NCBI GenBank assembly: GCA_944390115.1 | Contig: CALXOW010000026.1 | Location: forward strand, 1 to 41,870 | Length of the DNA: 41,870 nt | Source of the DNA: an uncultured Anaerobiospirillum sp. | Lineage (GTDB): Bacteria > Pseudomonadota > Gammaproteobacteria > Enterobacterales > Succinivibrionaceae | Direction: 5' to 3' | Shown: positions 2,624 to 35,234 of the stretch, in pieces | Numbering within the stretch: position 1 is the stretch's first letter | Layout: the number at the start of each line of letters is the position of its first letter | Translations under genes and position numbers: made by a program | The notes under the pieces: generated by a model | Database searches by the model: none | The model's input: only the letters and a program-made list of their open reading frames with translations | Told to the model about the DNA's origin: nothing

Positions 2624-5078
2624 GGGTCCAGTTTTGTAAGCGCAGGATGTCCGAGATGACACCGGCGGCGGTAACGTCAGTACCAGCGCCATAACCGCGA
2701 ATGACCAGTGGGATTGGCTGGTAGTACGCGGAGGTAAAGGACAGGGCATTCTCGCCGCCTACGACCTTGTAGAGCGGATCTTCTGGGCCCACGGCCTTGA
2801 CCGCGCAGCTGCACTTACCGCCGTCCTTGATGGTGGCGACATAACGCAGTACCTTGCCCTCGGCCTTAGCGGCAGCTACCTTCTGGGCAAATTCCTCATC
2901 GGCGTGCTTTAAGTTCTCAAGCACTTCCTGAGCGTTATTGCCCTCTAAGTACTTGCGATCTACTGGGTAGTCGATCTCGATGTCGCTCAAATCGAGCTTG
3001 TAACCACACTCACGGGCTAAGATTAAGAGCTTACGTGCGACATCCATGCCCTCTAAGTCATCGCGTGGGTTGGGCTCGCTATAACCGCGCTCATAGGCAT
3101 CACGGGTGGCTTCAGATAAGGTCTTACCCTCATCGACTAAGCCAAAGATGTAGGAGAGCGTGCCCGACATAATGCCGTTGAACTCGATCAAACGGTCACC
3201 GGCCGCCAGCAGGTTTTGCAGCGTATTGATCACTGGTAAACCAGCACCCACCGTGGCCTCGTAGTAGAACTTGCGGTGGCAGGAACGCGCAATCTGGCGT
3301 AAGCCCTTGTAGTACTCGTAGGAGCTGGTATTGGCCTTCTTATTTGGGGTGACGACGTGGTAGCCCACCTTCATCAGCTCAATATAGGACAGCGCGATAT
3401 CCTCGCTTGAGGTGCAGTCAACAAAGACTGGGTTAACTAAGTGCGAATCCTCAACTAAGCGCTTAGCTTCCTCAATCGAGAAGGCTGGATTATGGCAAGC
3501 CTCTAACAGCTGTGGTACCTGCTCTAAGTTCAGACCGCGTGGATCCTTAACGTAGGTCTTGGAATTAGCCACACAAATGACGTGCAGCTCAACGCCATTG
3601 CGCTGTTGCAGCTCAGTTTGCTGCTTACGAATCTGCTCAAGCAGGGCCTTGCCCACACCACCGACACCAACAATGATGAGATCGATGATCTGACGGCCGC
3701 TAAAGAGCAAGGTGTGGCAGCTATAGATCGCCTCAGAAACCTTGGAATTATCGATAACCGCCGAAATCGAGCGCTCGGAGCTACCTTGGGCAATCGCGTT
3801 GATGTTGATATTGGCTTGAGCCAGGGCACGGAAGAATTTCGAGGATACGCCCTTAGCGGTACGCATACCCTCGCCCACGACCGAGATAATGGCCTTATTG
3901 TCCAAAATCTCAATTGGGTCTAAGAGCTGAGCTTGCAGCTCGAGGGCAAACTCTTCTTCAATCGCGGCACGGGCTAAGAAAGCGTCTTCGGAGTGGACGC
4001 AGAAGGAAATCGAGTACTCCGACGAGGACTGGGTAATGAGGACAATCGAAACGCCTGAGCGCGAGATGCAGGTGAAGAGGCGACCGGCCATACCGACCAT
4101 ACCCTTCATGCCAGGGCCCGAGACGTTGATCATCGAGACGTTCTTGAGATCGGAGATACCCTTGATCGCCAAGGAGCGATCGGTCTCATCAGAGATTAAG
4201 GTGCCCTCACCTTGTGGGTTTAAGGTGTTCTTAATCAGGCATGGAATGCGGTACTGGGCAATTGGTGCAATGGTGCGTGGGTGCAGCACCTTGGCACCAA
4301 AGTACGACAGCTCCATCGCCTCCTTGTAGGACATACGGCGCAACAGCACCGCATCAGGGACGGTGCGTGGGTCGCAGCTGTAGACGCCATCAACGTCGGT
4401 CCAAATCTCACAGCATTGAGCCTTAGCGACAGCGGCTAAGCAGGCAGCGGAGTAATCCGAGCCATTGCGGCCTAACAGCACGAGTTGACCTTGACGGTCA
4501 CCACCGCAGAAGCCCGACATCAAGATAATAGCCTTAGGATCAATGCTCAGGCGGGCAAAGCGCTCGCTGGAGGCGGCGATATCAACCGAGGACTCCAGAG
4601 GCTTACCGTCACAGACCAAGATCTGCACTGGGTCGATCACCTGCACTAAGTGCTGACGGGCCGTTAAGAGCTCAGCCATGATCGCGATCGACAAGGCCTC
4701 ACCGCGACACTCGATAAAGGCGGCGACGGCATCCGGGCACGAGCCTAATAAGGTGATACCCTCAACGCGGCGCTTTAATTCCTTGACCGTCTCTTCGTAG
4801 AAGGCCATAACCTTAGCACCATCAAAGTTAGGGTATTGGGTGTCTAAGGTATTGATGAGCGGACGGATGATGTTATCTAAGGCGCCAAATTCGTTCTTGC
4901 AATCAGAGCCTGCCAGCGCGCTTTTAACCATCGACACCAAAATATTGGTGACGCCCGCAGGAGCCGAGAGCACCAATGCGGTCTGAACCTGGATAGCGGT
5001 GTTAATCGCAATCTCTGACACATTAACGACACGCTGAGCATCTGCTACTGAGGTTCCACCAAATTTTAAGACGCGCAT
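2613..5078 (-). CDS. thrA: Bifunctional aspartokinase I / homoserine dehydrogenase I
   Basis: Catalyses the first and third steps from aspartate towards threonine. It has 821 residues against 820 in E. coli ThrA, with the same order: aspartokinase at about 1-250 (KFGGTSVA at the start, then GRNGSDYSAA and EIWTDVDGVY), paired ACT domains at about 310-460 (VSGPGMKGMVGMA, ITQSSSEYSISF, AQGSSERSIS), and homoserine dehydrogenase from about 465 (VGVGGVGKALLEQ nucleotide fold, VTPNKKANTSS, GTLSYIFG, EPNPRDDLEGMDVARK). The ATG at 5078 is preferred over an in-frame TTG 9 nt upstream because AGGAG lies 9 nt before it and the protein then begins MRVLKFGG as in the family. The ACT domains imply threonine feedback. 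First gene of thrABC. Confidence 0.97.
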   Translation of the reverse strand: MRVLKFGGTSVADAQRVVNVSEIAINTAIQVQTALVLSAPAGVTNILVSMVKSALAGSDCKNEFGALDNIIRPLINTLDTQYPNFDGAKVMAFYEETVKELKRRVEGITLLGSCPDAVAAFIECRGEALSIAIMAELLTARQHLVQVIDPVQILVCDGKPLESSVDIAASSERFARLSIDPKAIILMSGFCGGDRQGQLVLLGRNGSDYSAACLAAVAKAQCCEIWTDVDGVYSCDPRTVPDAVLLRRMSYKEAMELSYFGAKVLHPRTIAPIAQYRIPCLIKNTLNPQGEGTLISDETDRSLAIKGISDLKNVSMINVSGPGMKGMVGMAGRLFTCISRSGVSIVLITQSSSEYSISFCVHSEDAFLARAAIEEEFALELQAQLLDPIEILDNKAIISVVGEGMRTAKGVSSKFFRALAQANININAIAQGSSERSISAVIDNSKVSEAIYSCHTLLFSGRQIIDLIIVGVGGVGKALLEQIRKQQTELQQRNGVELHVICVANSKTYVKDPRGLNLEQVPQLLEACHNPAFSIEEAKRLVEDSHLVNPVFVDCTSSEDIALSYIELMKVGYHVVTPNKKANTSSYEYYKGLRQIARSCHRKFYYEATVGAGLPVINTLQNLLAAGDRLIEFNGIMSGTLSYIFGLVDEGKTLSEATRDAYERGYSEPNPRDDLEGMDVARKLLILARECGYKLDLSDIEIDYPVDRKYLEGNNAQEVLENLKHADEEFAQKVAAAKAEGKVLRYVATIKDGGKCSCAVKAVGPEDPLYKVVGGENALSFTSAYYQPIPLVIRGYGAGTDVTAAGVISDILRLQNWTREA

Positions 5079-5170
5079 AAAGAGCAACTCCTAAACTCCA
5101 AAAAATCCGTCCCAGCACTAAGCGCCCGTAGCTCCACCAAATAAGGACCATGAACGGCCAGCAACTAAGG

Positions 5171-5257
5171 CCCAAATAAAAACAATGACAGGCCCCAACA
5201 AGGCCTTGGGGCGGCCACAATCAGGCCACTGGGTCGGCCCCGACTGCGCATGCAGTC
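5171..5257 (-). promoter_or_regulatory. Structured thrA leader, candidate attenuator
   Basis: On the minus strand the leader first has a GACTGC/GCAGTC hairpin (5242-5257). It then has a 7-bp GCCCCAA/TTGGGGC hairpin (5192-5212), followed 9 nt later by TTTTTATTT. An upstream GGGGC stretch (about 5236-5241) could pair instead with the GCCCC arm of the second hairpin. That is the geometry expected of terminator/antiterminator switching. No threonine- or isoleucine-rich leader peptide was found, so the trigger is unknown and the call is tentative. Confidence 0.35.
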
Positions 5258-5324
5258 AAACCAATAAGCAAAAAATAAGAAAGGCACCAACCAAAACCGC
5301 CTTAAAGCGCCATTTTACGGCCAT
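5256..5324 (-). CDS. Possible 22-residue leader peptide upstream of thrA
   Basis: A 22-codon frame starts at ATG 5324, inside the presumed thrA transcript, and stops within the first leader hairpin. The product begins MAVKWRFK and continues with a hydrophobic stretch rich in Val, Leu and Phe. It has no Thr and only one Ile, unlike E. coli ThrL. The ribosome binding site is weak (GGA only a few bases from the ATG). It may be a chance frame; its position between a promoter and the attenuator-like hairpins is the only reason to list it. Confidence 0.25.
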   Translation of the reverse strand: MAVKWRFKAVLVGAFLIFCLLV

Positions 5325-5350
5325 TAATCCGGCTCTAGGGTGCACGGCCC

Positions 5351-5380
5351 ATTGTCCTAGTTTTAATCAAAACTTGTCAA
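5351..5380 (-). promoter_or_regulatory. Candidate sigma-70 promoter for thrABC
   Basis: On the minus strand a perfect TTGACA (5375-5380) is followed after 18 nt by GACAAT (5351-5356, 4 of 6 matches to the -10 consensus). This gives a leader of roughly 265 nt before the thrA ATG. Confidence 0.5.
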
Positions 5381-5519
5381 CCGTCACGCTTTTGCAGCGG
5401 CACTTGCCCTGTTACAACGCCTCAACGCCCTATTTTGGTGCCAAAACTATGGCTTAGGATTTGCTCAAAATACCCCATCAGGGCTTAATCTACGGGCGCG
5501 CTTACTATGGAGGTGGCTT

Positions 5520-6395
5520 ATGAACATCGCACCAACTTCCTCAACGGCAAGTATCGAGCTGCTGCGGCAAATGGCCGCCTCTCCGCTCAAAAATGAGCTG
5601 CACGAAGCCAACGCTCAGGTTAAGACCCAAGCTACCCACCAGGTTACGACCAACGAGCAAAATTTTGCTCCAACATTCAGCAAATCAAGCCCAAGTGAGC
5701 CTGCTAGCGGCATCAACTCGGCCAAGCTCATCCAAGAGGCTAAGGCGGTGCAAGCTGCACAAACAGCACAAGCAACCAAAAACGCGCAAGCAGCCCCAAG
5801 CACCACCGAGCCTACTGAGGTCAAACCACCGCTGCTTGGCACTGCTCCCAAGACCGTAGGCGCGCCGGTCAGCTCAGGCTTTAATAGCTTGGGCAATCTG
5901 AGTACCAACACCAATTTCCAGGACTTTGCGCTCTTAAACACCAAGCAAGCCGCTTTAAATCAGGCCTTGGCTGTGGCGCAAGCCACAGGCCAAACGGCTG
6001 CTGCGGCGGTGCAACCGGCGCTCATCATTCAGCTTGGTATGCTCCAACAGCTCTACAGCTGGTCGCGCCAATTAGAGCAGCGCAAATTAAACGAGCAGCA
6101 CAACACCAACCCCAGTGCCATGGCCTCCAGCGATGAGGAAGGAGCGGAGGTAGGCATCTCGCAGCTGGTGTGCCTCATCTTTTTTGAGCGCACCTTAAAG
6201 CTAGTGGACAGCTGCAAGCACTTAGCGCTCAACCGCTTCTTAAAGAAAGGGCCTTTAGGCGAGCACCTGCACGAAGAGAACACTGATGATGAGTACGGTA
6301 CCACCTATGCCGACGTGGACGCCGAAACCGACTACATCAAGCGCCCGCGCCACGACAAGCCCGGAATGGATTTCCACTACGCCCTGCTGAGCTAA
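5520..6395 (+). CDS. Hypothetical protein, disordered N-terminal half and helical core
   Basis: I do not recognise this 291-residue protein. The ATG at 5520 has a strong GGAGGT about 7 nt upstream. Residues 1-125 are rich in Ala, Gln, Thr, Ser and Pro, as in a disordered region. Residues 130-195 look helical and Ala/Gln-rich. A short hydrophobic stretch, VCLIFFERTLKLVDSCKHLA (about residues 217-236), is followed by an acidic tail. There is no signal peptide or clear membrane segment. It is transcribed away from thrA and lies upstream of the arabinose-like locus on the same strand, but 270 bp of repeats and promoter sequence separate them, so it is probably its own transcript. Confidence 0.7.
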   Translation: MNIAPTSSTASIELLRQMAASPLKNELHEANAQVKTQATHQVTTNEQNFAPTFSKSSPSEPASGINSAKLIQEAKAVQAAQTAQATKNAQAAPSTTEPTEVKPPLLGTAPKTVGAPVSSGFNSLGNLSTNTNFQDFALLNTKQAALNQALAVAQATGQTAAAAVQPALIIQLGMLQQLYSWSRQLEQRKLNEQHNTNPSAMASSDEEGAEVGISQLVCLIFFERTLKLVDSCKHLALNRFLKKGPLGEHLHEENTDDEYGTTYADVDAETDYIKRPRHDKPGMDFHYALLS

Positions 6396-6440
6396 CGCCC
6401 TACCCCCAGTTCCTACGCTCTCCCAGCCCGTAGCCCAGCC

Positions 6441-6519
6441 CAACCATTGCGCGCTAAGCTCAGCCCCAGCCTCTAACCTGCTCACTTCCTACTGAGCTCA
6501 ACCATGGCGCGCCAAGCTC
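6441..6519. repeat. Diverged direct repeat after the hypothetical gene
   Basis: CAACCATTGCGCGCTAAGCT at 6441 recurs at 6499 with two differences in its first 20 bases; the spacing is 58 bp. A further short repeat (GCTGGGCAAA) lies at about 6588-6618. No open frame of note is present, so this is degenerate intergenic repeat sequence. Confidence 0.5.
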
Positions 6520-6667
6520 GTGCTCTAACCCAAATGCTTTAGCGCTGTGCCCGTGAGTTCAATGAGAGACGCTCACCGCCAGACGGCGCTGGGCAAAATT
6601 GTTGCGGCTGGGCAAATTGAGTACTAGACATTCACAAATTTGGATCTGCCTCACACTTTGTTGCTTA

Positions 6668-6732
6668 TAGCAATTTTGTCCAGTAAATAAGAAAAATTAT
6701 CCACTGTGAACACCGGGTTAAAAACCTAAAAT
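6668..6732 (+). promoter_or_regulatory. AraC-type activator sites and promoter of the permease-GH42 operon
   Basis: Half-site 1 at 6668-6684, TAGCAATTTTGTCCAGT, matches E. coli araI1 (TAGCATTTTTATCCATA) at 13 of 17 positions. Half-site 2 at 6689-6705, AAGAAAAATTATCCACT, starts exactly 21 bp later in the same orientation and keeps TTATCCA. A weak -35 (CTGTGA, 6704-6709) overlaps the end of half-site 2. After 17 nt comes TAAAAT (6727-6732) as -10. Direct repeats in 21-bp phase, with the promoter-proximal one overlapping the -35, is the araBAD arrangement. The convergent AraC-family gene downstream is the obvious partner. Confidence 0.65.
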
Positions 6733-6813
6733 ACCCCATAGCAACACGGTTTGCCCCTTACCGTGTTGGGCGCTGCAGCACTGTACTTTTTGGTTTTTAG
6801 CAGGACATTTTCT

Positions 6814-8097
6814 ATGTTTGGATTCTTAACTCGCGGCGAGCCTGCACCCGCCGCTAACTGGACTACCCCTAAAGACAGTGAGCAGCCCAAGTTACCTTTA
6901 ATGGAAGGCATCGCCTTAGTCGTTGGCGTCTTCTTCTGGCTTGGTTCCTATTTAGGCATGGTGGGCGTGCTGGTGCCTGCCCGCATCGCCGAAATTGACC
7001 CAGAGGCTAAGGCTACCGCCTTAGCGGCAATGTCGGCCATCGCGATGGTAGTTTCGACTATCGCCAACATCTTAGAGGGCGCTTGGTCCGACCGTACCCG
7101 CTCGCGCTTTGGCCGCCGCACCCCATGGCTCTACTTTGGCTCGATTGGTGCCGCCATCTGCATTTACTTCTGGGGTACCGCCGATAGCATCGCCGCGATT
7201 ATCGCGTGGGATGCCATCTACATGATCTTTTTAAACGCCATTGTGGCCCCACTTATCGCCGTACTCTCCGATCGCGTCGCTCCCCGCCATCGTGGCACCA
7301 TTTCCTCGATGTACGCCATCGGTATGTCCGCTGGTAACTATGGCGGTCAAATCCTGGCAGCCTTCTTCATCGGCGTCAATGAGACCAACGGCGTTATCTT
7401 AATGGCGGTGATGGCCCTGCTCTCTGGTCCTTTAGCTTCGGTCTTCTTGCGTGAAAAGAGCACGATCGGCATGCCAGTCGAGAAGCTAACCTTAAAGAAC
7501 TTATCTGAGAACTTCGCCTTCCCCCTCAAGGATTGCCGTGATTACTACTTGGCTTTAATCGGCAAGGTCTGCGTAGTCTCTGCTCAGTTCACCGTTGCCG
7601 GTTATCAGCTCTACATCCTAACCGACTACATCGGCCTGAGCGACAGCGAGTCGGCCTCCTACATCAGCTATATCTCGACCATCTTGATGGTATCAGCCAT
7701 CATCTTGTCCCTGATTTCGGGCCCAATTGCCGATAGGATGCATTGGCGCAAGTGGCCAGTGGTTATCTCCTCTCTGTTAATGGCGATAGGCTGCATCATC
7801 CCAAGCTTTGCCCCGAGCGCCAACTTAATGCTGGTTTATGCCTTAGTCGCAGGCTTAGGTTATGGCATCTTCTCCTCCTTGGACCAAGCCCTGAATATCG
7901 ACGTGTTGCCAAACATGAAGACCGCCGCTAAAGACTTAGGCATCCTCAACATCGCCAACAACGGTGGTCAAGTAATTGGACCGGTACTCTCGGGCATTAT
8001 CATTGCCACCGCTGGCTATGACTACGTGTTCCACTTAGGCTGCGGCCTGGCCTTAATGGGTGCAATTCTCTTAGCCTTCATCAAGAAGGTCCACTAA
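6814..8097 (+). CDS. Sugar permease, MFS/GPH type (glycoside:cation symporter-like)
   Basis: Inner-membrane sugar transporter with about 12 predicted hydrophobic helices in 427 residues. Start chosen at ATG 6814, with AGGA 8 nt upstream, rather than a TTG 63 nt earlier that has no ribosome binding site. The cytoplasmic loop at about residues 89-105, GAWSDRTRSRFGRRTPW, is the signature shared by GPH (melibiose-type) symporters and SLC45-like sucrose carriers. A second half-repeat motif, GPIADRMHWRKWP, follows in the C-terminal half. The GH42 gene starts 101 bp downstream on the same strand, so the two probably import and cleave the same beta-galactoside or arabinoside. Substrate specificity cannot be read from the sequence. 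Confidence 0.85.
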   Translation: MFGFLTRGEPAPAANWTTPKDSEQPKLPLMEGIALVVGVFFWLGSYLGMVGVLVPARIAEIDPEAKATALAAMSAIAMVVSTIANILEGAWSDRTRSRFGRRTPWLYFGSIGAAICIYFWGTADSIAAIIAWDAIYMIFLNAIVAPLIAVLSDRVAPRHRGTISSMYAIGMSAGNYGGQILAAFFIGVNETNGVILMAVMALLSGPLASVFLREKSTIGMPVEKLTLKNLSENFAFPLKDCRDYYLALIGKVCVVSAQFTVAGYQLYILTDYIGLSDSESASYISYISTILMVSAIILSLISGPIADRMHWRKWPVVISSLLMAIGCIIPSFAPSANLMLVYALVAGLGYGIFSSLDQALNIDVLPNMKTAAKDLGILNIANNGGQVIGPVLSGIIIATAGYDYVFHLGCGLALMGAILLAFIKKVH

Positions 8098-8198
8098 CAG
8101 CTTAAGATCCTATAACAGCGTCCCTGCTGCAGTTTAGAACTCCCAAGGCTCTAACCTGTGGCCCCAAGCTTGAGCTACCGTGCAAAAAAGGATTTTCT

Positions 8199-10250
8199 AT
8201 GAACCAAGATCAGATTTTCTTTGGCAGCGCCTATTACCGCGAATACCTGCCTTACGAGCGCCTTGAGCAAGACATTTTGCTCATGAAAAAGGCGCACTTC
8301 AACTACGTGCGCATCGGCGAAAGCACCTGGAGCACCTACGAAAAAGAAGATGGCGTCTTTGACTTCAGCCCAGTTCTCACCGTGCTCGATAAGATGCACG
8401 AAAACGGCATCAAGGTCATTGTCGGCACCCCGACCTACGCCGTACCGGCCTGGCTGGTAAAGAAGCACCCTGAGGTACTGAGCACCACCTTACAAGGACC
8501 AAATCGCTATGGCGCCCGCCAGCTGATGGATATCACCGCCCCGGCCTACCGTTACTACGCTGAGCGCATTGTCACCAAGATGATGGAGGCCGTACACGAC
8601 CACCCAGCCATTATCGGCTACCAACTGGACAATGAGACCAAGTACTACGGCTGCATCAGCTCTAACTTGCAGTACGAGTTCGTCAAGTACTTAAAAGAGA
8701 AGTTTCACGGCGATCTTACCGCCTTAAACCACGCCTTTGGCCTTGATTACTGGTCGAACCGTATCGATGCCTGGGAAGATTTCCCTGATGTTGCGGCCAC
8801 CATCAACGGCTCGCTGATGAGCGCTTTCCAGCAATTCCAGCGCCTTGAAGTCACCCGTTGGCTCAAAAAGCTGGCCGATCTGGTACGTCCTTACCTCAAG
8901 CCGGAGCAATTTCTCACCCACAACTTCGACTTTGAGTGGCGCGATTATTCCTTTGGCGTCCAACCTGACGTCAATCACTTTGAGGCCTCTCAGCCTTTAG
9001 ATATTGTCGGCGTTGACATCTACCACCCATCGCAGGAATATCTCACCGGCAAGGAAATCGCCTTTGGCGGCGATGAGATCCGCTGCCTTAAGGATCAACG
9101 CTACTTCGTCTTAGAGACCGAAGCCCAAGCCTTCAAGAACTGGACGCCATTCCCTGGCCAGCTCACCTTACAAGCACTTGCCCACGTAGCCACAGGTGCG
9201 CGCATGGTCAGCTACTGGCACTGGCATTCGATCCACAATTCCTTTGAGTCCTATTGGAAGGGTCTGTTAAGCCACGACTTAGAGCCTAACCCGGTCTATG
9301 ATGAGGCCTGTACCTTAGGTGCTACCCTCGAGCAATTACAGCCTGAGCTCACGGGCTTCCACAAAGACAACAAGGTTTGCCTCATCGTATCCAATGAGTG
9401 CTTAACTGCCATCGACCAATTCCCGTATCGCGGCCCAAGCCTGCACACGGTCAACTTCAAGGAGCACCTCTACAACGATGTAGTGCGCAAGTACTACGAC
9501 GCCCTGTACGAGCACAATATTGAAGCCGATATTCGCTGCATCGATGACGAGCGCATCTTTGACGGCCGCTACCAACTCCTTGTATGCCCGCTACTCTACA
9601 CCGTCAGTGATGCCAAATTACAGCAATTGCGCACGTTCATTGAGCACGGCGGTCACGTCCTGTTCTCATTTAAGAGTGCGGTAGCCGATGAAAACGTCAA
9701 GATCCGCACGGTACGCCAGCCGGGCCTGCTCACCGACCTGTTAGGCGTGTCCTACCAACTAATAGCCGAGCCGCATAACGTCAACTTGGTCTCAAGCAAG
9801 CTCGATTTGAGCACCGCTGATTGCCAGGCCCGCGATTTCATGGAGCTGGTAACTCTCGATAATCCTAAGGTTGAGGTTTTAGCATCCTACGATCACCGCT
9901 ATTACCAAAAGTACGCCGCTGTTTCCTATCTCAAGCAAGAGCAAGGCGGCAGTGGTACCTATATTGGCGCGGATGTCTCGCAAGACGTGATTGCTCAGGT
10001 GTTAGAGTACATCATCTCCGACAATCAGCTGCTCCCAGAGCGCACCCAGCTTCGTTTCCCATTGATTGAACGCACGGCCCTTGATGGCGCTAACCGCAAG
10101 ATCCGCTTCATCATGAACTTCTCGGAGCAGGAGCAAACCATTACCTATCAGGGTAAGAATGCGCAATCGCTCTTAGACGGACGCACCGTCACCACAGGCA
10201 CTCCACTGACGCTTAAGGACTGGGGTTGCCTGGTACTTAAAGAGCAATAG
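8199..10250 (+). CDS. GH42 glycosidase (beta-galactosidase or related)
   Basis: Cytoplasmic family-42 glycoside hydrolase of 683 residues, normal for the family, with no signal peptide. The N-terminal TIM barrel begins FFGSAYYREYLP. The acid/base glutamate is E146 in GYQLDNET and the nucleophile is probably E306 in YFVLETEAQAFKNW. A beta-galactosidase trimerisation-like domain follows from about residue 390 (KVCLIVSN), with a small C-terminal beta domain at the end. The ATG follows AGGA. It shares an operon with the permease, and a strong terminator follows. GH42 includes beta-galactosidases and alpha-L-arabinopyranosidases; the AraC control seen here keeps the second activity open. Confidence 0.9.
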   Translation: MNQDQIFFGSAYYREYLPYERLEQDILLMKKAHFNYVRIGESTWSTYEKEDGVFDFSPVLTVLDKMHENGIKVIVGTPTYAVPAWLVKKHPEVLSTTLQGPNRYGARQLMDITAPAYRYYAERIVTKMMEAVHDHPAIIGYQLDNETKYYGCISSNLQYEFVKYLKEKFHGDLTALNHAFGLDYWSNRIDAWEDFPDVAATINGSLMSAFQQFQRLEVTRWLKKLADLVRPYLKPEQFLTHNFDFEWRDYSFGVQPDVNHFEASQPLDIVGVDIYHPSQEYLTGKEIAFGGDEIRCLKDQRYFVLETEAQAFKNWTPFPGQLTLQALAHVATGARMVSYWHWHSIHNSFESYWKGLLSHDLEPNPVYDEACTLGATLEQLQPELTGFHKDNKVCLIVSNECLTAIDQFPYRGPSLHTVNFKEHLYNDVVRKYYDALYEHNIEADIRCIDDERIFDGRYQLLVCPLLYTVSDAKLQQLRTFIEHGGHVLFSFKSAVADENVKIRTVRQPGLLTDLLGVSYQLIAEPHNVNLVSSKLDLSTADCQARDFMELVTLDNPKVEVLASYDHRYYQKYAAVSYLKQEQGGSGTYIGADVSQDVIAQVLEYIISDNQLLPERTQLRFPLIERTALDGANRKIRFIMNFSEQEQTITYQGKNAQSLLDGRTVTTGTPLTLKDWGCLVLKEQ

Positions 10251-10285
10251 TCTCACAGAGCAAAAACCATCAAGACAATAATGCA

Positions 10286-10316
10286 AAGCTGCGGACGCTA
10301 AGTGCGCAGCTTTTTT
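10286..10316 (+). terminator. Rho-independent terminator after the GH42 gene
   Basis: An 8-bp perfect stem, AAGCTGCG with CGCAGCTT, encloses an 11-nt loop; the plus-strand T run (six or more) begins within the 3' arm. It ends at the stop codon of the convergent araC-like gene and may serve both. Confidence 0.85.
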
Positions 10317-11197
10317 CATTTGGGCGCCCCGTGAGCGGCACTGCGGTATTCGCCCGGCGTCATGCCGTAATGCTGCTTGAAGATGCGGTAAAAATAGCCG
10401 CTATCGCGGATCCCCACGCGCTGAGCGATATCCTCCACCGACAAGGTGGTCGAGAAAAGCTGCGCTTGCGCCATCTTTAGGCGCTGTATGGTGAGCCAGC
10501 GTTTAGGACTGACCCCGGCAATCTTGGTGAAGAGATGCACGAAATGAGACAGCGACAAGTGCACTTGAGCTGCCACCTCGGGCAAATCAAGCTCAGGGCG
10601 GCTCAAATTGTCGCGCATGTAGATCATAGCTAAGCTCAAGCGATGATCGCTGGGCAGTGGCGGCGGGGCGACATGGGCGGCAATCTCCATGCGCCGAAAG
10701 AGCATTTTCTCGAGGTAATTCAGGGCCAAGATCTGCGAGCAATGCTCTTGGGTGTGATTGCGTCGAATCAGCTCAAGAAAGTCTGAGCTAAATTCGTCAA
10801 AGCAATCAGGAGGCAAGGTAAAGCGCTCGACTAAATGCGTCGCTGTCCCCCAGTGCAAAGCCTCCTGCCAATAACCCCGCGCAAAGAAGTAAACCCATTG
10901 ATGGTGCCACAACGCCGCATCAGGATGGCGCTGATAGTAATGGGGCACATCGGGCGCAAAGAGCAGCAGATCGCCCTTACGGCACACGAACTGAGTGGGA
11001 CCATCGGTGATTAGGCCCTCTCCAGCCACGGTCAAATTGAGAATATAACCGCGCATACCCTGGGGTCGGTTGATGATCTCATCAAATGGCCGACCGCGCT
11101 CCATCGGGGTAATGCCTGAAATCACCGTGTCATCGGTGAAGTAAATGGTGGGCGGAGCCTTAAGCGGATCAGGCATCAGCTCCTGATAATGCGCCAT
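10316..11197 (-). CDS. AraC-type transcriptional regulator with conserved arabinose pocket
   Basis: 293-residue activator closely resembling E. coli AraC: N-terminal arm, cupin sugar-binding/dimerisation domain (about 20-170) and two helix-turn-helix motifs (about 195-290, ending GYFYRIFKQHYGMTPGEYR). The residues that contact arabinose in E. coli AraC (P8, T24, R38, Y82, H93, W95) align with P11, T30, R44, Y88, H99 and W101 here. The blocks GYILNLTVAGEG and HHQWVYF are nearly identical to AraC. It converges on the permease-GH42 operon, whose promoter has AraC-like half-sites. The inducer is inferred to be L-arabinose or a close analogue such as a galactose-type sugar. No araBAD genes lie in the window. 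Confidence 0.88.
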   Translation of the reverse strand: MAHYQELMPDPLKAPPTIYFTDDTVISGITPMERGRPFDEIINRPQGMRGYILNLTVAGEGLITDGPTQFVCRKGDLLLFAPDVPHYYQRHPDAALWHHQWVYFFARGYWQEALHWGTATHLVERFTLPPDCFDEFSSDFLELIRRNHTQEHCSQILALNYLEKMLFRRMEIAAHVAPPPLPSDHRLSLAMIYMRDNLSRPELDLPEVAAQVHLSLSHFVHLFTKIAGVSPKRWLTIQRLKMAQAQLFSTTLSVEDIAQRVGIRDSGYFYRIFKQHYGMTPGEYRSAAHGAPK

Positions 11198-11352
11198 CTA
11201 AGCCTCCCTCAGGCCTCAGCCGAGAAGCGAGCCCACAAACGCAGCGGCCAGCGGTTGCAGCAGTCGCCCTCCGCGCCGCGCAAGCTCAAAGTGAACTTAT
11301 TGCCTGTAGCCTAAATCCTCAGCCTGGCAAATCTACGCACCCCCAGTAGCAC

Positions 11353-11387
11353 CAGCACCATATCGTGCTAACTTGGCAGCACCATAT
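11353..11387 (-). repeat. 24-bp-period direct repeat spanning the DtxR-family stop codon
   Basis: The 11-mer ATATGGTGCTG (minus strand) occurs at 11377-11387 inside the gene and again at 11353-11363 just after it. The copies are exactly 24 nt apart, with the stop codon between them. The second copy is in frame with the first. Confidence 0.65.
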
Positions 11388-11904
11388 TGACGTTGAGCGG
11401 GTTAACCTCTGTCGGCTGGGCAAATTCCTTCGGCAGGATATTGCGCGCCTCCAAGAAGGCCACGATGCGCTCCAAGGTCACATCGGAGATCACATGCTCC
11501 ATGCGACAAGCGTCTTGCTCGGCTTGGCTCGCGGGCACCTCAAGCACGTAGCGCAGGAAGTAAGTGAGGATGCGATGACGGCGAAACACCTGTTGGGCAT
11601 AGGCTAAGCCCTCCGGGCTAAAGATGATGGCACCCGACTTCTCAATTGAGATAAGGCCCTTTTCGACCAATTGGCGTAAGGCACGGGACACACTAGGCTT
11701 AGAAAAGCCTAATTCATTGGCGATATCGACCGCGCGCACCAAGCCGCTTTGGGTACGGGCGCGAATGAGCAAGATCGCCTCTAAATAGGTTTCACCTGAC
11801 TCGGCAACATCGTGATCAGTAGATTTAGTGGGGACCTCAGGCACTGCGGTTAAAGCAGTAACCATAGTCGGAGTTTCCAAATCGACTTTAGTAGCTCGAG
11901 TCAT
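11368..11904 (-). CDS. DtxR/MntR-family metal-dependent repressor
   Basis: 178-residue cytoplasmic repressor of the DtxR/MntR group, which binds Fe2+ or Mn2+ and represses metal-uptake genes. After a roughly 33-residue unstructured extension comes the winged helix (about 35-100, with ANELGFSKPSVSRALRQLVE as recognition region). The metal-binding/dimerisation helices follow, with H110 in FRRH and C133, E136 and H137 in DACRMEH, which matches the DtxR ligand pattern. There is no C-terminal SH3-like domain, as in MntR. AGAGGA lies about 10 nt before the ATG. A TTACC/GGTAA palindrome lies 25 bp upstream and may be its own operator. Iron versus manganese cannot be decided; the Cys ligand leans to iron. 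Confidence 0.85.
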   Translation of the reverse strand: MTRATKVDLETPTMVTALTAVPEVPTKSTDHDVAESGETYLEAILLIRARTQSGLVRAVDIANELGFSKPSVSRALRQLVEKGLISIEKSGAIIFSPEGLAYAQQVFRRHRILTYFLRYVLEVPASQAEQDACRMEHVISDVTLERIVAFLEARNILPKEFAQPTEVNPLNVNMVLPS

Positions 11905-11928
11905 GACTCATCAATCCTCTGAAAAAAG

Positions 11929-11943
11929 TTACCATTGGGGTAA
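11929..11943. promoter_or_regulatory. Candidate operator before the DtxR-family gene
   Basis: TTACC-ATTGG-GGTAA forms a 5-bp inverted repeat with a 5-bp centre, 25 bp upstream of the start codon, where an autoregulatory site would block transcription. A related palindrome precedes the Cys-rich membrane protein gene at 13.36 kb. Confidence 0.35.
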
Positions 11944-11996
11944 GAGCGCGCTCAAGGAGCAGGTAGCCTCAAGGCGCATGTGGTCTCAAAACGCAA

Positions 11997-12057
11997 ACAG
12001 CCCGCCCTATTAAGCTGGCGCTAAAAGCTTAGCATAGCAAAAGTTAGGGCGGGCTGT
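11997..12057 (-). terminator. Long hairpin between the Fur-like and DtxR-family genes
   Basis: A perfect 12-bp inverted repeat (ACAGCCCGCCCT with AGGGCGGGCTGT, plus one more A-T pair inside) encloses about 35 nt. On the minus strand it is followed by TTTGCGTTTT. It lies after the Fur-like gene and before the DtxR-family promoter, so termination of the former is the simplest reading. The large loop is unusual for an intrinsic terminator. Confidence 0.5.
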
Positions 12058-13438: not shown

Positions 13439-13461
13439 AGTGCCTTATACCAGTGTCTTAT
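13439..13461 (-). repeat. 13-bp-period repeat at the stop codon of the first KAP gene
   Basis: AGTGTCTTAT at 13452, which includes the stop codon on the minus strand, is preceded on the plus strand by AGTGCCTTAT at 13439: one mismatch in ten, 13 bp apart. Confidence 0.45.
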
Positions 13462-15593
13462 GATCCCTTTTGCACCAGCTCGACCTGATAGCCCATCTTA
13501 CGGAAGCGCTTGAGGTACTCTTCAAATTCACGTTCCAAGATCTTGCGGCTCATCAAGATGCGGCTGCCATCATTAAGCTGCGGAAAATCATTACGCCATC
13601 TTTCTTCGTCATCCAGGTGTAGTTCCGCACGCAGCTCCTCTTGGTATAAGACAAAGCGATGGGCGTCAGGGTAGAGATTGAGCTTAGTGATCATTTCTGC
13701 CCCCGTCTGCTGGGAATTAGCTCTGATAAAATCAGTGGCTAATTGGAACAAAAGGTTATTGCAGGTCGCAAAGAACTGCCCCTGAGTTGGGCCATAGTGT
13801 ACGCCGTGATAGGAATAGACGTTGTCATCCTCAGCACAATGCATGGTCAAATCGCTCAAACCTATGCGGGTAAAATGCTGGAACACCCAAGCCATATCAC
13901 GTTTGCGTACGTAGGAAGCGGTAAATACCTTACCGTCAGCAAAGCTTAGCGTAATGTTGGAGTCGGACTCGTCTAGATCTTGGTGGAACGTCTCAGAACG
14001 CTTACCCAGCTGCTGGTACTCCTCCACCGTCATAACAATGGTTGGTCCCCACGGCGGGTTGACCTTTTGAATGAACTCAGCGCGCGAGAGCTTAGGATGC
14101 GCTTTTTGGTAGTCACGACACAAGGTGTGCAGCAGCTCAGATTTTTGGTCACTGGTGTAAACCTTGCCCGCATAATCGTAGGCCGAATCATCGTTGGTGA
14201 CCTTGCGCTTAGGATGTTTAGACCCCAAGCCATCGCGGTTTGAGCTGGTAACCGAGGTCACCCGGAGCAAGGCTAAGCCCCAAGCGATGCTCTCGCCCAA
14301 AATGACATCATCCTTGATGATTGCGGCAATCTGATTGAGCAGCAGCAAAATGTAATCAAAGTTTTGCTGCAAATAAGCATCGTTTTGGCAGATACGAAAC
14401 AAGACCTGCGCCCACTCATCCGGAAATTCCTGCTTAAGCCACGGCACGAGCTCAGACGCAATCTCTGGGGCCTTACGCAGCTGAGCAAAAGTACTATCCC
14501 AGCTCTTAAAGTCAGGTACTTCCAGCAACAGATCGAAGATCGACGGATAGGCGATCTGAATGCAGACTAAGGCAAAAATCAGCTGCTTAGTGAAAAGCTC
14601 ATGCGCCGCCGCGTTTTCAGGCTGAGTCGGTTGCAGCTGGGGGCTATTAATCAGAGCAAAAAGTGCCAGGCTATTAGCTAGACGCTTGAGCGCGCGCGGA
14701 TTCGAGCCCACCGACCAATAAGCAATCGAGCTTAACTGAGCGATCAGCTGTTCATCAGCTCCTTCTGCCGGGCTTAAGAAGGCATTGGTGAGCAAGGCCT
14801 GCTGCAAGAAGCCATCGATCTTGTAAGTAGGCAGCGGCATCGTAAAGGGCAGCTGCACGAACTTATCGAAGAACGCGCGAAACTGCCGGTCATTGGCCGC
14901 CGTGTGCACACCAAACTTCGGCTCAAGTCCTTTGATCACAACCTCAAAGTCAAGTGCCAGCACAAAGATGCAATGCTTGAGATCGAAGACGTTCTTGAGC
15001 ATTTCCAGGGTATCAACCGCAAGCTTTGGATCGATGCGATCGAGATCGTCAATAAAGATGACAAAGCCCCGATAGGAATGCTGCTCAAGGCTAGCGTTAA
15101 TGAGCTTGGCAAGCTCCGCTTTAAGCTGCAGCACCTCGGAGTTTAAGTTGGGGGCTTGGTTCACTAACAAGGGTGAAATATCAGCGCCGACTTGCTTGGC
15201 AGCGACTTTAGTCCCAATCACCGCAAAACGACTGAACAACGCTGATACCTTGTCTTTGACCACGGCCAATTTGCCGTAGACCTGCACTCCAATCTGGCTT
15301 ACCAGGGCCTCCATAATCCCCACGAGTGCCAGCTACGGCGAATGCATCAAGGCATAGTGCCAGGTGTTGACCTCAATGGCGCAAAAGGGCGCATTATACC
15401 CTGTACACAGATCGCGTTTGAGCGCATTCATGAGTGTGGTCTTGCCACTACCCCACTCCCCCTGCAAGGCGATCGTGATCGGGGTATCAGAGTTCTTAAT
15501 GAAACGGCTTAACGCCTCTTGATACGCTTTTAGCCCCAGCAAATCGTCGCTGCCATCAACTAATGGCACATCAACATTAGAAAAAGCCGCCAT
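13458..15593 (-). pseudogene. KAP P-loop NTPase, copy 1, interrupted by an in-frame TAG
   Basis: Paralogue of the intact gene at 16.2-18.0 kb. Walker A (QGEWGSGKTTLMNAL) lies in the 5' part, which ends ALMHSP at a TAG at 15333-15335. The same frame continues without a break for over 600 codons, with Walker B FVIFIDDLDRIDP at about 15036-15066. The paralogue has a serine codon (TCC) at the TAG position, so a substitution in a serine codon explains it. The first ATG with a plausible ribosome binding site is 15593; translation could restart at 15323, but that product lacks Walker A. The C-terminus carries two tandem copies of a roughly 115-residue module found once in the paralogue. No membrane segments are seen between the Walker motifs. 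Probably inactive, unless the TAG is a sequencing error or is read through. Confidence 0.75.
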
Positions 15594-16172: not shown

Positions 16173-17993
16173 CTATTCTTGCACGACCTCAATGTGATAG
16201 CCCAGCTTGTCGAACAGCTCCAAATGCTTGTCAAACTCCTTCTTAAAATACATATAGCGCGGCAAGCAAACACGTCCTTCCTTAAGTGGCGGAAAATCAA
16301 AACGATATTCTTTAGCCACTTTTGGATCGTTTTCATCAACCGTAGCTGCATCACGGAGTTGGAAGTAGCTTTTGGCATTTGGCCAAATCGTCATAGTCTC
16401 CACCATCTCTTGGGCTGTGAGCTCCGGATGATCTGCAATATATTCACAGAACACCTGATGAATGACATCAAATTTCTTGGAGCGGCTATCAAAGCGCTGG
16501 CCTCGGAACACGTAAACCGAGGTGTCCTTGACGTATTTACGCTTTTGCGCATTATTGGCGCTCGCAGCCTCATTGGTACTTCCGGCCTTAATATTGGTGA
16601 CCGTGGATAGATCCATGACCTGAGATACGATCTCGCCCAGCTCCTCATCGTTGTTAACCATATGCGCAATCTTATTGAGCAACTGCGACAGGTCAAAAGA
16701 GTGTTGCTGCAGATAGGCGTCCTGTTGGCAAATGCGGAACAAGGTCTGCTCCCATTCCTCGTCGAACGCCTCAGACTCCTTGAGCGACTCCAAGATCGCC
16801 TCATCAATCAGCGGTGCCTTCAGGCGTGTGGCCAGCGCAATATCCCAGCCCTTGAAATCAGGCTCATCGAGCAAGAGATTGTAGATAGCAGGATAAGCGA
16901 TTTGGATGCACACCAAGGCATAGCTAAGCTGCTTGGTAAAGGTATCAAGCTCCGCAGGTTGATTTTCTACTAAGCCTTGCGCTTGGGCCTTTTGCGACTG
17001 AATGCGGTTGATGATCGAGATAAGCGACAGGGTATTTGTCAGGCGCTTGAGTGAGCGTGGGTTAGTGCCGACCGTCCACTGGGCGATTTCACTCAAATCG
17101 CTGACCAAACCCTGATTCTTAAGCTCTTCTGCGTTAAAGAAAGCGATATCTTGCAACGCCTTAACTAAGAAGTTGTCAATGGCGTAGGAAGCAACCGGCA
17201 TCGAGAACGGCAGCTGGATGATCTTATCGAAGAAGGAGCGGAACTCACGCTCGTTTTGCGCGGTGAGCTCACCAAATTTCGGCCTTAAGCCCTTGATCAC
17301 CACATTGTAGTCAATGGCCAGCACAAAGACGCAGTGGTCGAGGTCAAACAAATTCTTGAGCAGCTCAAGGATTTCTACCGCAAGCGAAGGATCGATACGA
17401 TCGAGGTCATCAATAAAGAAGATAAAGCCCTTTTTATCTCTTGATTGTGACATCGCATCATTGATCAGAGCAACGATCTCTTGCTTGAGCTTCTCAACGT
17501 TGGAATCAGACTCACCGGCTTTATCATTGCCGCCAAATAGCCCCTCAATGCACTCGCCATTAATGCCGACCGCTTGGGTGGCCACCTTGGTTCCGACCAC
17601 GGCCATGCGCTTGAAGATATCGCCAATCGCCTTCTTGCTCGCTTCCCAGCGCTGCTGATTAGGATTCAGCGAGCCAATTTGGTTAATGATTGACTCCAGG
17701 ATGCTGATAACGGCTTGGGACGGGGAATGAAGCAATGCAAATTGCCACGTGTTGATCCACACGCCAAAATAAGGCGCAGGCGCCACATCGCACAGGCTAA
17801 AGCGCAACGAGTTCATCAGTGAGGTTTTGCCGCTGCCCCATTCACCTTGCAGTGCAATCGTGATCGGGGTTCCGGTGTATTTTATGTACTCAATGAGCGC
17901 CTCTTGATAGACCTGAATGCCAAACAGATCTTCTTGGTTGGGCTGGCGTGGTACATCGATCACGCTCGACTTGAATCCTTTTTGCTCGACCAT
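16173..17993 (-). CDS. KAP-family P-loop NTPase, copy 2 (intact)
   Basis: 606 residues from ATG 17993; an upstream ATG at 18065 would add 24 basic residues and cannot be excluded. Walker A is GEWGSGKT (about residues 50-57) and Walker B FIFFIDDLDRIDP (about 190-202), followed by HCVFVLAIDYNVVIKGL. This is the KAP signature. A helical region with VGTNPRSLKRLTN follows. From about residue 490 comes a C-terminal module (VYVFRGQRF to LGYHIEVVQ) that also occurs twice in copy 1. KAP NTPases such as F-plasmid PifA are linked to phage exclusion and membrane-associated complexes, but this one has no membrane insertion. The gene lies 160-230 bp after a PAS-GGDEF gene on the same strand, an order repeated in the decayed copy. 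Function unproven. Confidence 0.85.
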   Translation of the reverse strand: MVEQKGFKSSVIDVPRQPNQEDLFGIQVYQEALIEYIKYTGTPITIALQGEWGSGKTSLMNSLRFSLCDVAPAPYFGVWINTWQFALLHSPSQAVISILESIINQIGSLNPNQQRWEASKKAIGDIFKRMAVVGTKVATQAVGINGECIEGLFGGNDKAGESDSNVEKLKQEIVALINDAMSQSRDKKGFIFFIDDLDRIDPSLAVEILELLKNLFDLDHCVFVLAIDYNVVIKGLRPKFGELTAQNEREFRSFFDKIIQLPFSMPVASYAIDNFLVKALQDIAFFNAEELKNQGLVSDLSEIAQWTVGTNPRSLKRLTNTLSLISIINRIQSQKAQAQGLVENQPAELDTFTKQLSYALVCIQIAYPAIYNLLLDEPDFKGWDIALATRLKAPLIDEAILESLKESEAFDEEWEQTLFRICQQDAYLQQHSFDLSQLLNKIAHMVNNDEELGEIVSQVMDLSTVTNIKAGSTNEAASANNAQKRKYVKDTSVYVFRGQRFDSRSKKFDVIHQVFCEYIADHPELTAQEMVETMTIWPNAKSYFQLRDAATVDENDPKVAKEYRFDFPPLKEGRVCLPRYMYFKKEFDKHLELFDKLGYHIEVVQE

Positions 17994-18191
17994 AGCTTGA
18001 TGCTTACTTCGTCTTAATTGCGACCGTTTTTTCTCAAATCTCAGCTGACGTCTAGCAGGCCACATTAGCTAGAGCTTGAGCCCAAGTTATCACAGGCATG
18101 CAGCTCAAGCCAGTATAGGCCAAAACAAAGGCTCCAAAGACAAACAAGCTTTATTTATCTGACTTAGGCAACAGCAGTCGTGTAACGACCG

Positions 18192-23850: not shown

Positions 23851-26800
23851 CTATTTGGGCTGGTCCTTGGGCCCCTTTTGCTCTTTGGGCTCTTTGGGGA
23901 CTTTTTGCTCCTTGTTGCCGGCGTTGATGGCGTTCTCGGTGTAGAACTGGGCATTGTTCGCCAGAATGTCGCTTAAGGCTACTTCCTGATCAAAGGAAAT
24001 GGCGCCCTCCTCTAACATCTTGGCGAGCTCAGCTGCGGTGTAACCCTCATTCATGAGATGACGTAAGCGCAGCTTAATCAGCATGTCACCGACCGCGTCG
24101 ATATCCCATAAGTCCACACCCTCGTTGATGAGCAGCTGAGCAAAGCGCTCGGCGACCTCAGGGGTGACCACCGAAAGCTCGGAGAGATCAAAGTCGGCCA
24201 GCTCTTCATCTAAGAGCGTCAGATCGTTGCCCTCAGAACTGATGGTCATCTCTTGCGGCTTAGGCGCTTCAAACGGTGCCACCAGCGGCTCCATTACGTC
24301 GGGCTGAGTCAAGCCCAGATTAAATTGCACATCCGGCATCTTGCCCGAATCAGACATCGTGCCATCAGCTGACGTTGTGCCCTCAGCTGACGTCGTGCCA
24401 TCACCTGGAGCCGTGCCATCTGCTGAGGTCGTGCCATCACCTGGAGCCGTGCCCTCATTTTGCGCCTGTGCCTGTTGACGCGCCGCCTCTTGCGCCATGA
24501 GCGCTTTAGTGCGCTCAAAGACGCGCTCGATCTTGGCGCTGACCTCGCGATCGATTTTTTGCATATCGGTGGCACTTAAAGCCTTAAAGTAATAAGACTT
24601 AGGCTCCACCGGCAAGACATCAAGCGGTAGCGGCAACTCCCTCTCAAGTAGCTTGTCGGGATCAAAGTTTGATACCAGCTCAAAAGTACTCTCATTAGGC
24701 TTGACGGCCTGACCGCTGTGGCGTGCAAAGAACTCACCGCCTTCCTTGATTTGCTCGCAATCAAGCTCGATATCATTACGCCACGCATTAGGGGCGTATA
24801 AATAGTCCGGCATGCAAGTCTCAAGGTCAAAATGCAAGTGAGCAAGCTGCTTGTGATACACCGTGCCCAGGTTCGGATAGTCCAATGGCTTGAGCGTAGG
24901 CGCACTCCCCTTGGCTTTGGTGATCTGAGCCTCGAGCTTTTTAGCCTGCAGTTTTATCGTCTGCAAATTACGCTGCAAATACTCTTGCTCCGTCTTGAGC
25001 GCCTGCAAGAGCTGCTCTTGACGCTCGATCTCATTGGCACCTGTGAGGAACTCAGGATGATGGAGATAAGCGTCGGAATACTCTTGCTCCTGCGTGCGCG
25101 GAGCGTTGAAGCCTGGATTGCTTGCTTGAGCGCTCGTAAAGCAAGTTATTGGCAGTGCAGCTAAGCCCATCTTATGGCGCTGCTCTGCTGCCTCCGCGCT
25201 AAAATCAAACCAAGATCGGATGTTTAAGGCCGCGTTGATCGTGCTCGGTAAATAGTAGCGGTAGTCGCGCTGTAACTCTTGGGACAGCTCAATTGGGTAA
25301 TCATGCAGCTGATACCACAGCTTAGTGCGATAGCCCTCACCAATCAGGAACAAGTCATCGACAAAGTTGGTGACCGGGCGATTTTGATCTAAGTTGTAGC
25401 GCAGCTCACGACTCCCGACATCCCAATATTGCTGCTCTAAGAACAGCTCCAGCTTGCTTTCGACGGTATGCTGATAGGTCCCCTCGCCCCATAAAGCTAA
25501 GGCCAACTTGTGGGCATCGCCCTCATAGCTTGGCTTTGTAGAGTCGATCTCAGCGCTGGCCTTAAATTTGGTGAGCGGATCAAAGAGGGTGAACGCATCG
25601 CAGATGAAATGGGCCTGATAGTCATAGCCTGCCAACATCAGCGGCAGTAAGCGCTGCACTTCGCTGCCCTCATAACTGCGGCCATAGGACACATTAAGAC
25701 CACTGGCCTGAGCATAGACGTAGAGCGGTGGATAGCACAAGTATTGCGCGATCTCATCGGCGTTGCTAAGGCCAGCGCCGAGCTCACCAGAACCGGCGTA
25801 AGTGTTAAAAGGCTGCTCCTCTAAGCTCAGCTTATCGCCCACCCAGTCGCGCTTTAACTGAGCTTGCAAGCGCTGTGGGAAGTACAGCTGCGCTAAGTTG
25901 TAGCGATCACAGGCGTGGCGCCAAATGAGGCTCGTGAGCTTAGAGAGCTCACAGGTGCGAACACTGAGCTCACTTTGCTGCGCCTCGGAGAGCTTTTCCC
26001 AATGGCTGTAGTTGTACCAAACCTTAAGGAAGGTATCGAGACGCGGGTCGATCTCAGGATCGCGGTGGCGCAATAAGAACTCAGGACGCGAGAAGTTAAG
26101 CCAGAGCAGCATAAACTCCTCACGCTGCGGCGTGTACGGATAAAGCTCTTTAAGTTCCCGTGGCGCCAGCTCCGTGACCCGATTGAAGCCCTTACGATTA
26201 CACTTAGGCTTAGGGTTAGGTGCCTTAAGCGTTGATGGGTCTAAAGTCCCGGCCTTTAAGGCTGCGACCTCATCGTAGGTGAGCACGCGACAGAGCTTAT
26301 TGGACAGCGCAATGACCTGAGCAAAGAAGGCAGCATCAAAGCCCATGAGCGAGCACAGCGCTTCGCGCTTGAGCTCAGGATCAGCACTGGTAAAGTAGCG
26401 TTGCAGATTAGGCGCGCACGCTAAGAGATCAGGACTTGAGAGCCAATCAATCAGCGCCGGGTGGAGCACGCTGTCATCATTAAGATAGATCATGCGCGCT
26501 GGGGTCGCATCGCTACTGCTCAAGCTGACGAGCATGCGCTCATACCAGCTCATATGATAAGTGGCTAAGCTATCGGCGCAATCGACCACCATCGCCTTTA
26601 ACAGATAAGGCGGGGTGTCTTCAGGCACATTGAGGTAACGGCACAGCTTGGCGGAAAATGGGTTGCTCTCACCGTCTGCGTTCTGCGCAAAAGAGGTAGC
26701 CTCGTGCCGGTCAGGGAAGGCAAAGCTTAGCGCATACGAGGCCATCGAGGAAAAGCCGTCGCTGAGCTGTTCACCTAAAGTGTCACGCTCAAAGCGCCAC

Positions 26801-35130: not shown

Positions 35131-35234
35131 GACGCGCTCCTTAGGTGAAATGACCGCAAGTAACAAAGCAGCGTTCGACACTGCTTTGGTGCTGAGCTTG
35201 AGGCTTACGCCCTAAGCTTCTTGCAACTTTCAGT

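Follow-up and report, generated by a model that had tools for sequence, protein, structure and literature searches.

Closest described systems

The araBAD control region is a textbook genetic switch, known mainly from E. coli. In Salmonella, AraC reportedly also controls the arabinoside genes araT-araU, a finding attributed to Stringer et al. (2014). These genes are said to belong to another enzyme family and, unlike the locus described here, to lie within a regulon that contains araBAD. According to the accessible part of PMC8341724, araU is induced by arabinose. The closest enzyme of solved structure is BlArap42B (PDB: 5xb7), described in the available portion of PMC8106489 as an alpha-L-arabinopyranosidase. 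It comes from the actinobacterium Bifidobacterium animalis subsp. lactis.

The window, a 41,870-nucleotide stretch of DNA, corresponds to contig C26 in a draft genome of 3.6 Mb (G000, 92.85% complete) whose nearest named relatives, judged by the GH42 gene, are Anaerobiospirillum (Succinivibrionaceae). The segment 6640-11197 carries a control region followed by genes for an MFS permease, a GH42 glycosidase and a convergent AraC regulator (Table 1). Like E. coli araC-araBAD, it combines a putative CRP arm with two direct half-sites 21 bp apart, the second beside the -35. Distances to TCACA and the -10 agree within 1 bp, and the AraC sensor residues are shared. It differs in that the promoter serves a permease and a glycosidase instead of araBAD, and in that the regulator gene is convergent and behind the operon, whereas E. 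coli AraC is divergent. The E. coli looping layout is thus not evident here. As in Salmonella araT-araU, AraC would govern arabinoside genes outside araBAD.

Table 1. Features of the control region and the three genes of the locus
Feature	Position	Strand	Evidence
CRP-like site, TTGGA-N6-TCACA	6640..6655	+	by eye, without a CRP matrix; TCACA arm kept in G003 and G001
AraC half-site 1 (I1-like), TAGCAATTTTGTCCAGT	6668..6684	+	12.4 bits (E. coli matrix)
AraC half-site 2 (I2-like), AAGAAAAATTATCCACT, 21 bp after site 1	6689..6705	+	6.9 bits alone
Weak -35 position ACTGTG, overlapping half-site 2	6703..6708	+	E. coli analogy, 18 bp upstream of the -10
-10 element TAAAAT	6727..6732	+	CTAAAAT identical in G001, at equal distance from site 1
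MFS permease, 427 aa	6814..8097	+	Pfam MFS_1 112 bits, MFS_2 54 bits
GH42 enzyme, probable alpha-L-arabinopyranosidase, 683 aa, marker W353	8199..10250	+	structure match, Pfam domains, marker Trp
AraC regulator, 293 aa, convergent	10316..11197	-	NF007860 264.3 bits (cut-off 208); contacts kept

The three genes were confirmed as the permease-GH42 operon with convergent regulator proposed in the first-pass annotation. The permease has no near relative among solved structures. Elsewhere, the window encodes an open frame of 3776 codons with no match in Pfam (23851-35181, minus strand) and a neighboring pair of KAP-family P-loop NTPases (13458-15323 and 16173-18065, minus strand).

A probable araBAD-type control region

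Both direct 17-bp half-sites are present where the first-pass annotation had placed them. The claimed agreement of half-site 1 with E. coli araI1, at 13 of 17 positions, is correct, and half-site 2 agrees with araI1 at 10 of 17. The overlap of half-site 2 with a weak -35 also stands, the position of this element being set by analogy with E. coli. With a scoring matrix built from four E. coli half-sites only (I1, I2, O1L and O1R, located in the K-12 record), the pair, at its spacing of 21, reaches 19.2 bits. This score is not attained in any of 20,000 order-1 randomizations of 6396-6813 (maximum 16.8 bits). Across 3.1 million positions of scanned DNA, it is exceeded by five different pairs. Two of these lie in E. 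coli and one in the GH42 promoter of G001; for the remaining two, L117 (G001 C144) and L100 (G011), we have no explanation. On its own, half-site 2 is weak, its score being exceeded at 13 single places in 5000-12000, half-site 1 among them.

The two half-sites are identical to each other at 11/17 positions. We rejected this self-similarity as proof, as it lies within the regional background, where a 12/17 repeat occurs at offset 19. The argument is the likeness to AraC sites, not the mutual likeness.

The region has the layout of an araBAD-type promoter, with two direct half-sites 21 bp apart beside a -35 and a set distance to the -10. TCACA precedes site 1 by 17 bp in both G000 and its relative G001 (18 bp in E. 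coli), and the -10 follows site 1 by 59 bp in both (58 bp in E. coli). A consensus promoter scan called no promoter at this control region. The consensus scan for terminators found one terminator-like stem in the leader (6763-6781), and promoter and terminator counts were both below the shuffle means. No obvious third site resembling the distant O2 half-site was found at the locus, where only weak candidates occur, at 10270 (minus strand, 10.3 bits, E. coli matrix) and 6588 (minus strand, 9.9 bits, own-site matrix). The predicted leader contains a nine-pair hairpin (6742-6768) that is largely kept in G003 and not in G001. A structured leader was rejected, the whole leader folding no better than shuffles (z-score -0.55).

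Conservation in close relatives

The expectation that the half-sites recur before orthologous operons held in G003 and in G001 (Candidatus A. pullistercoris), the two relatives with permease, GH42 and convergent AraC genes in the same order. It held in part in G004, where a good first half-site precedes GH42 and the second is poor or degenerate. In G004, no AraC was found at E 1e-30 on a contig that ends ~480 bp past GH42.

The G003 GH42 enzyme is 94% identical to that of the window. The permease match in G003 (L105 4206-5279) covers residues 1-358 of 427 and its frame stops early at 364 codons, so this is either a truncated gene or an assembly error. Identity to G001 falls in an unusual order, from permease (88%; window 6814-8097 against L024 4551-5834) to GH42 (66%) to AraC (54%). 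Sequence flanking the operon in G000 matches that in G001 in short stretches only.

G001 keeps 14/17 positions of half-site 1, 10/17 of half-site 2, 7/7 of CTAAAAT and 11/16 of the CRP-like site, together with the distances from TCACA to site 1, from site 1 to site 2 and from site 1 to the -10. Identity outside the sites is 18/90 over 90 positions further upstream and 26/74 downstream. The whole 83-bp cassette aligns at 44/83, a modest margin over the 39 of the best unrelated alignment, so the case for conservation rests on the sites and not on the whole stretch.

The AraC regulator

Of 11 matches in the genome to the NCBI AraC equivalog model NF007860, the regulator alone passes the curated cut-off; the other ten AraC-family matches reach 75 bits or less. 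Its best solved relatives are structures of the E. coli AraC sensor domain. It keeps all six residues that we take to be the arabinose contacts of E. coli AraC (P8, T24, R38, Y82, H93 and W95), as the first-pass annotation had stated, P8 being placed by an alignment with a 2-residue insertion. The neighboring residues F15, I36 and M42 are likewise kept. The contacts are also kept in an alignment of 13 GH42-linked regulators; 12 have all six, and the G003 sequence is cut off before P8.

P8, T24 and R38 are no longer present in two longer AraC-like paralogs from the same genus, showing that these residues can vary in this background. These paralogs (L091 640-2049 in G002 and L093 664-2229 in G001; 469 and 521 codons) carry a long insert and altered arabinose contacts, and are possibly sensors of another sugar.

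The GH42 enzyme

The homology to 5xb7 spans residues 4-672 (617 bits), and the next solved structure reaches 185 bits. The GH42 catalytic, trimerization and C-terminal domains score 247.5, 91.6 and 28.2 bits, all over their cut-offs. In the text available from PMC8106489, Trp358 of BlArap42B obstructs the site where the C6 hydroxyl of galactose would lie, a group that a His binds in a beta-galactosidase. W353 of the window enzyme falls at the position of Trp358, counted along the alignment to 5xb7. Among 89 aligned GH42 sequences, this marker is Trp in all 82 of this type and His in all seven of a second type from the same bacterial family; the nucleophile column reads M in the seven His-type enzymes, which we take for a one-residue misalignment. 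The marker counts, and the sensor counts given below, exclude three loci (L094, L096 and L097) that duplicate the window, L024 and L002.

From homology and this key residue, we conclude that the enzyme is probably an alpha-L-arabinopyranosidase. The window also encodes a GH2 beta-galactosidase and contig C12 a His-type GH42, and these two can serve galactosides.

Arabinose genes elsewhere and reach of the regulator

The absence of araBAD genes claimed earlier is true of the window and not of the genome, which encodes araA on contig C107 and araD on C41. No ribulokinase in the genome scores over the curated araB cut-off. The best hit was rejected as araB, as it falls below that cut-off, lies in an ABC sugar-transport locus and looks xylulokinase-like by eye. 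The araA gene adjoins ABC transporter genes, and palindromes that appear LacI-like by eye lie upstream of this operon (L118 11660-11790). They suggest another regulator there.

In the stretches searched upstream of araA and araD, the best 21-bp pairs reach 4.4 and 9.4 bits, versus 19.2 at the GH42 promoter. A tandem pattern occurs in perfect form once in the draft genome, at this promoter, with two further places at 2 and 3 mismatches; the reversed control gives one match. Given the single perfect occurrence and the low araA and araD scores, the GH42 promoter may be the only target of this AraC, the pattern searches having covered paired sites at one spacing.

The first pattern, run over G000, G001 and G003, matched ten places, three of which are the GH42 promoters. 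The other seven have 3 mismatches in six cases and 2 on C16. ORF beginnings inspected by eye revealed no arabinose genes near five of them (C16, C35, G001 C1, G001 C144 and G003 C138), G001 C60 and C88 being outside this check. A looser tandem pattern was rejected for producing too many chance matches across 59 genomes. Among the matches listed, the reversed control came close to the pattern in frequency in many genomes; the draft genome was thus searched alone.

Proposed function and alternatives

Conservation and gene linkage lend good support to the earlier proposal that the sensor and promoter plan of the arabinose operon are coupled to a GH42 enzyme. We consider it likely, on the sequence features, that the locus is an arabinopyranoside-utilization operon under araBAD-type control. 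The permease may import an alpha-L-arabinopyranoside, or arabinose itself, and inside the cell the GH42 enzyme would cut off L-arabinopyranose. We infer that AraC binds this sugar as the inducer and, together with CRP, occupies both direct half-sites beside the weak -35, which would switch the operon on. The freed arabinose could then be used by AraA and AraD, encoded elsewhere.

The first-pass annotation had left two inducers open, a galactose-like sugar or arabinose released by the enzyme. Arabinopyranose release is favored because the closest solved enzyme is an alpha-L-arabinopyranosidase, the marker Trp is present and the AraC contacts are unchanged. A galactose-like inducer is disfavored. 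It would go with an enzyme that is mainly a beta-galactosidase and with an AraC whose specificity has changed or that is responsive to galactose or fucose. GH42 is indeed mostly known for beta-galactosidases, and the part of PMC10673005 available describes enzymes that cleave both galactosides and arabinopyranosides. We nevertheless judge such an enzyme improbable here: the arabinopyranosidase is the best solved match by a wide margin, Trp stands where His-type enzymes bind C6, the sensor contacts show no change and the genome has other beta-galactosidase genes.

The operon could also be one member of a wider AraC regulon that includes araA, araD and others, with nothing uncoupled. That only one gene passes the AraC cut-off fits this idea, and our pattern searches would miss single sites, weak pairs and other spacings in a draft that is ~93% complete. 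Yet the pair scores before araA and araD, the single perfect tandem pattern and the palindromes noted by eye before the araA operon all speak against a shared regulon, which we regard as unlikely. Ten further AraC-family matches in the genome could in principle supply a different protein for the half-sites, leaving the convergent regulator to act elsewhere. This seems very improbable, as all ten fall below the AraC cut-off and as the sites co-occur with the convergent regulator in G000, G001 and G003.

The arabinopyranoside operon that we favor is built from components of known kinds in a variant wiring, for which the sequence makes a strong case. A nearly identical araBAD layout here serves another operon in a distant gut lineage, without change to the sensor contacts, and offers natural variants for probing the requirements of such a promoter. 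The regulator also appears to have parted from the catabolic genes by which it is defined. Furthermore, a neighboring AraC regulator may serve as a cue for assigning arabinopyranosidase activity within GH42. Among the matches listed from open-licence literature, there is no report of an AraC-GH42 link, and none combines GH42, AraC, arabinose and CRP.

GH42-AraC pairs outside the genus

Gammaproteobacterial GH42 loci give 155-186 bits with a profile of the AraC sensor in 13 of 14 cases; L002 of G004 is the exception. The profile was built from eight Enterobacterales AraCs and so favors Enterobacterales scores. In 70 other GH42 loci, with flanks of at most 6 kb, it detects no such sensor (0/70, 61 bits at most). 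A GH42 match at E 1e-180 occurs in only 4/395 genomes of the order, which indicates that this GH42 gene is rare there.

Eight Enterobacterales loci encode GH42, then a transporter, then an AraC-type regulator (ORFs listed for four of the eight). G266 has the same order, and G388 encodes transporter, GH42 and regulator. Like the window, these operons (L003, L005-L009, L011, L013, L185 and L186) have an AraC-type sensor with the contacts kept, and the GH42 enzymes of the eight loci included in the tree are of the same clade. They differ in that the regulator gene is last and co-directional and in transporter type, judged by eye; L186 has the transporter first. Each of the seven Enterobacterales genomes searched encodes a second, higher-scoring AraC.

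In the GH42 tree, the sequences of the genus and of the eight Enterobacterales loci form one clade (SH-aLRT 99). A first AraC tree with distant outgroups gave no resolution. Grouping the two sets of GH42-linked AraCs as one clade was rejected (AU p 4.9e-5, with a long-branch warning), and the Enterobacterales GH42-linked and main AraCs group together (support 100/99, with L185 and L186 outside the tree). As the GH42 enzymes of both groups form one clade and the AraC regulators do not, these trees suggest that the two groups recruited their regulators separately, long branches being a caveat.

We speculate that AraC was taken out of the araBAD circuit to become a dedicated sensor of one enzyme's product, acting on just one promoter within an autonomous arabinopyranoside module. 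This module would have been assembled at least twice in gammaproteobacteria, because the AraC regulators next to related GH42 genes fall on separate branches. Should AraC prefer the alpha-pyranose that a retaining GH42 enzyme releases, the circuit could distinguish arabinopyranosides from arabinofuranosides. We hold this reading tentatively, and think it somewhat doubtful as a whole.

CRP-like sites are also present in the Enterobacterales GH42 promoters, and inspection by eye shows tandem motifs with 21-bp spacing in 8/10. The exceptions are L003, with a spacing of 24 bp, and L006, without a clear tandem. With the E. coli matrix, 21 bp is the top-ranked spacing in three of the ten promoters and not in L003, L005, L006, L007, L009, L011 or L013. 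The three are G388 (18.8 bits), L008 (17.5 bits) and G266, which reaches only 5.2 bits.
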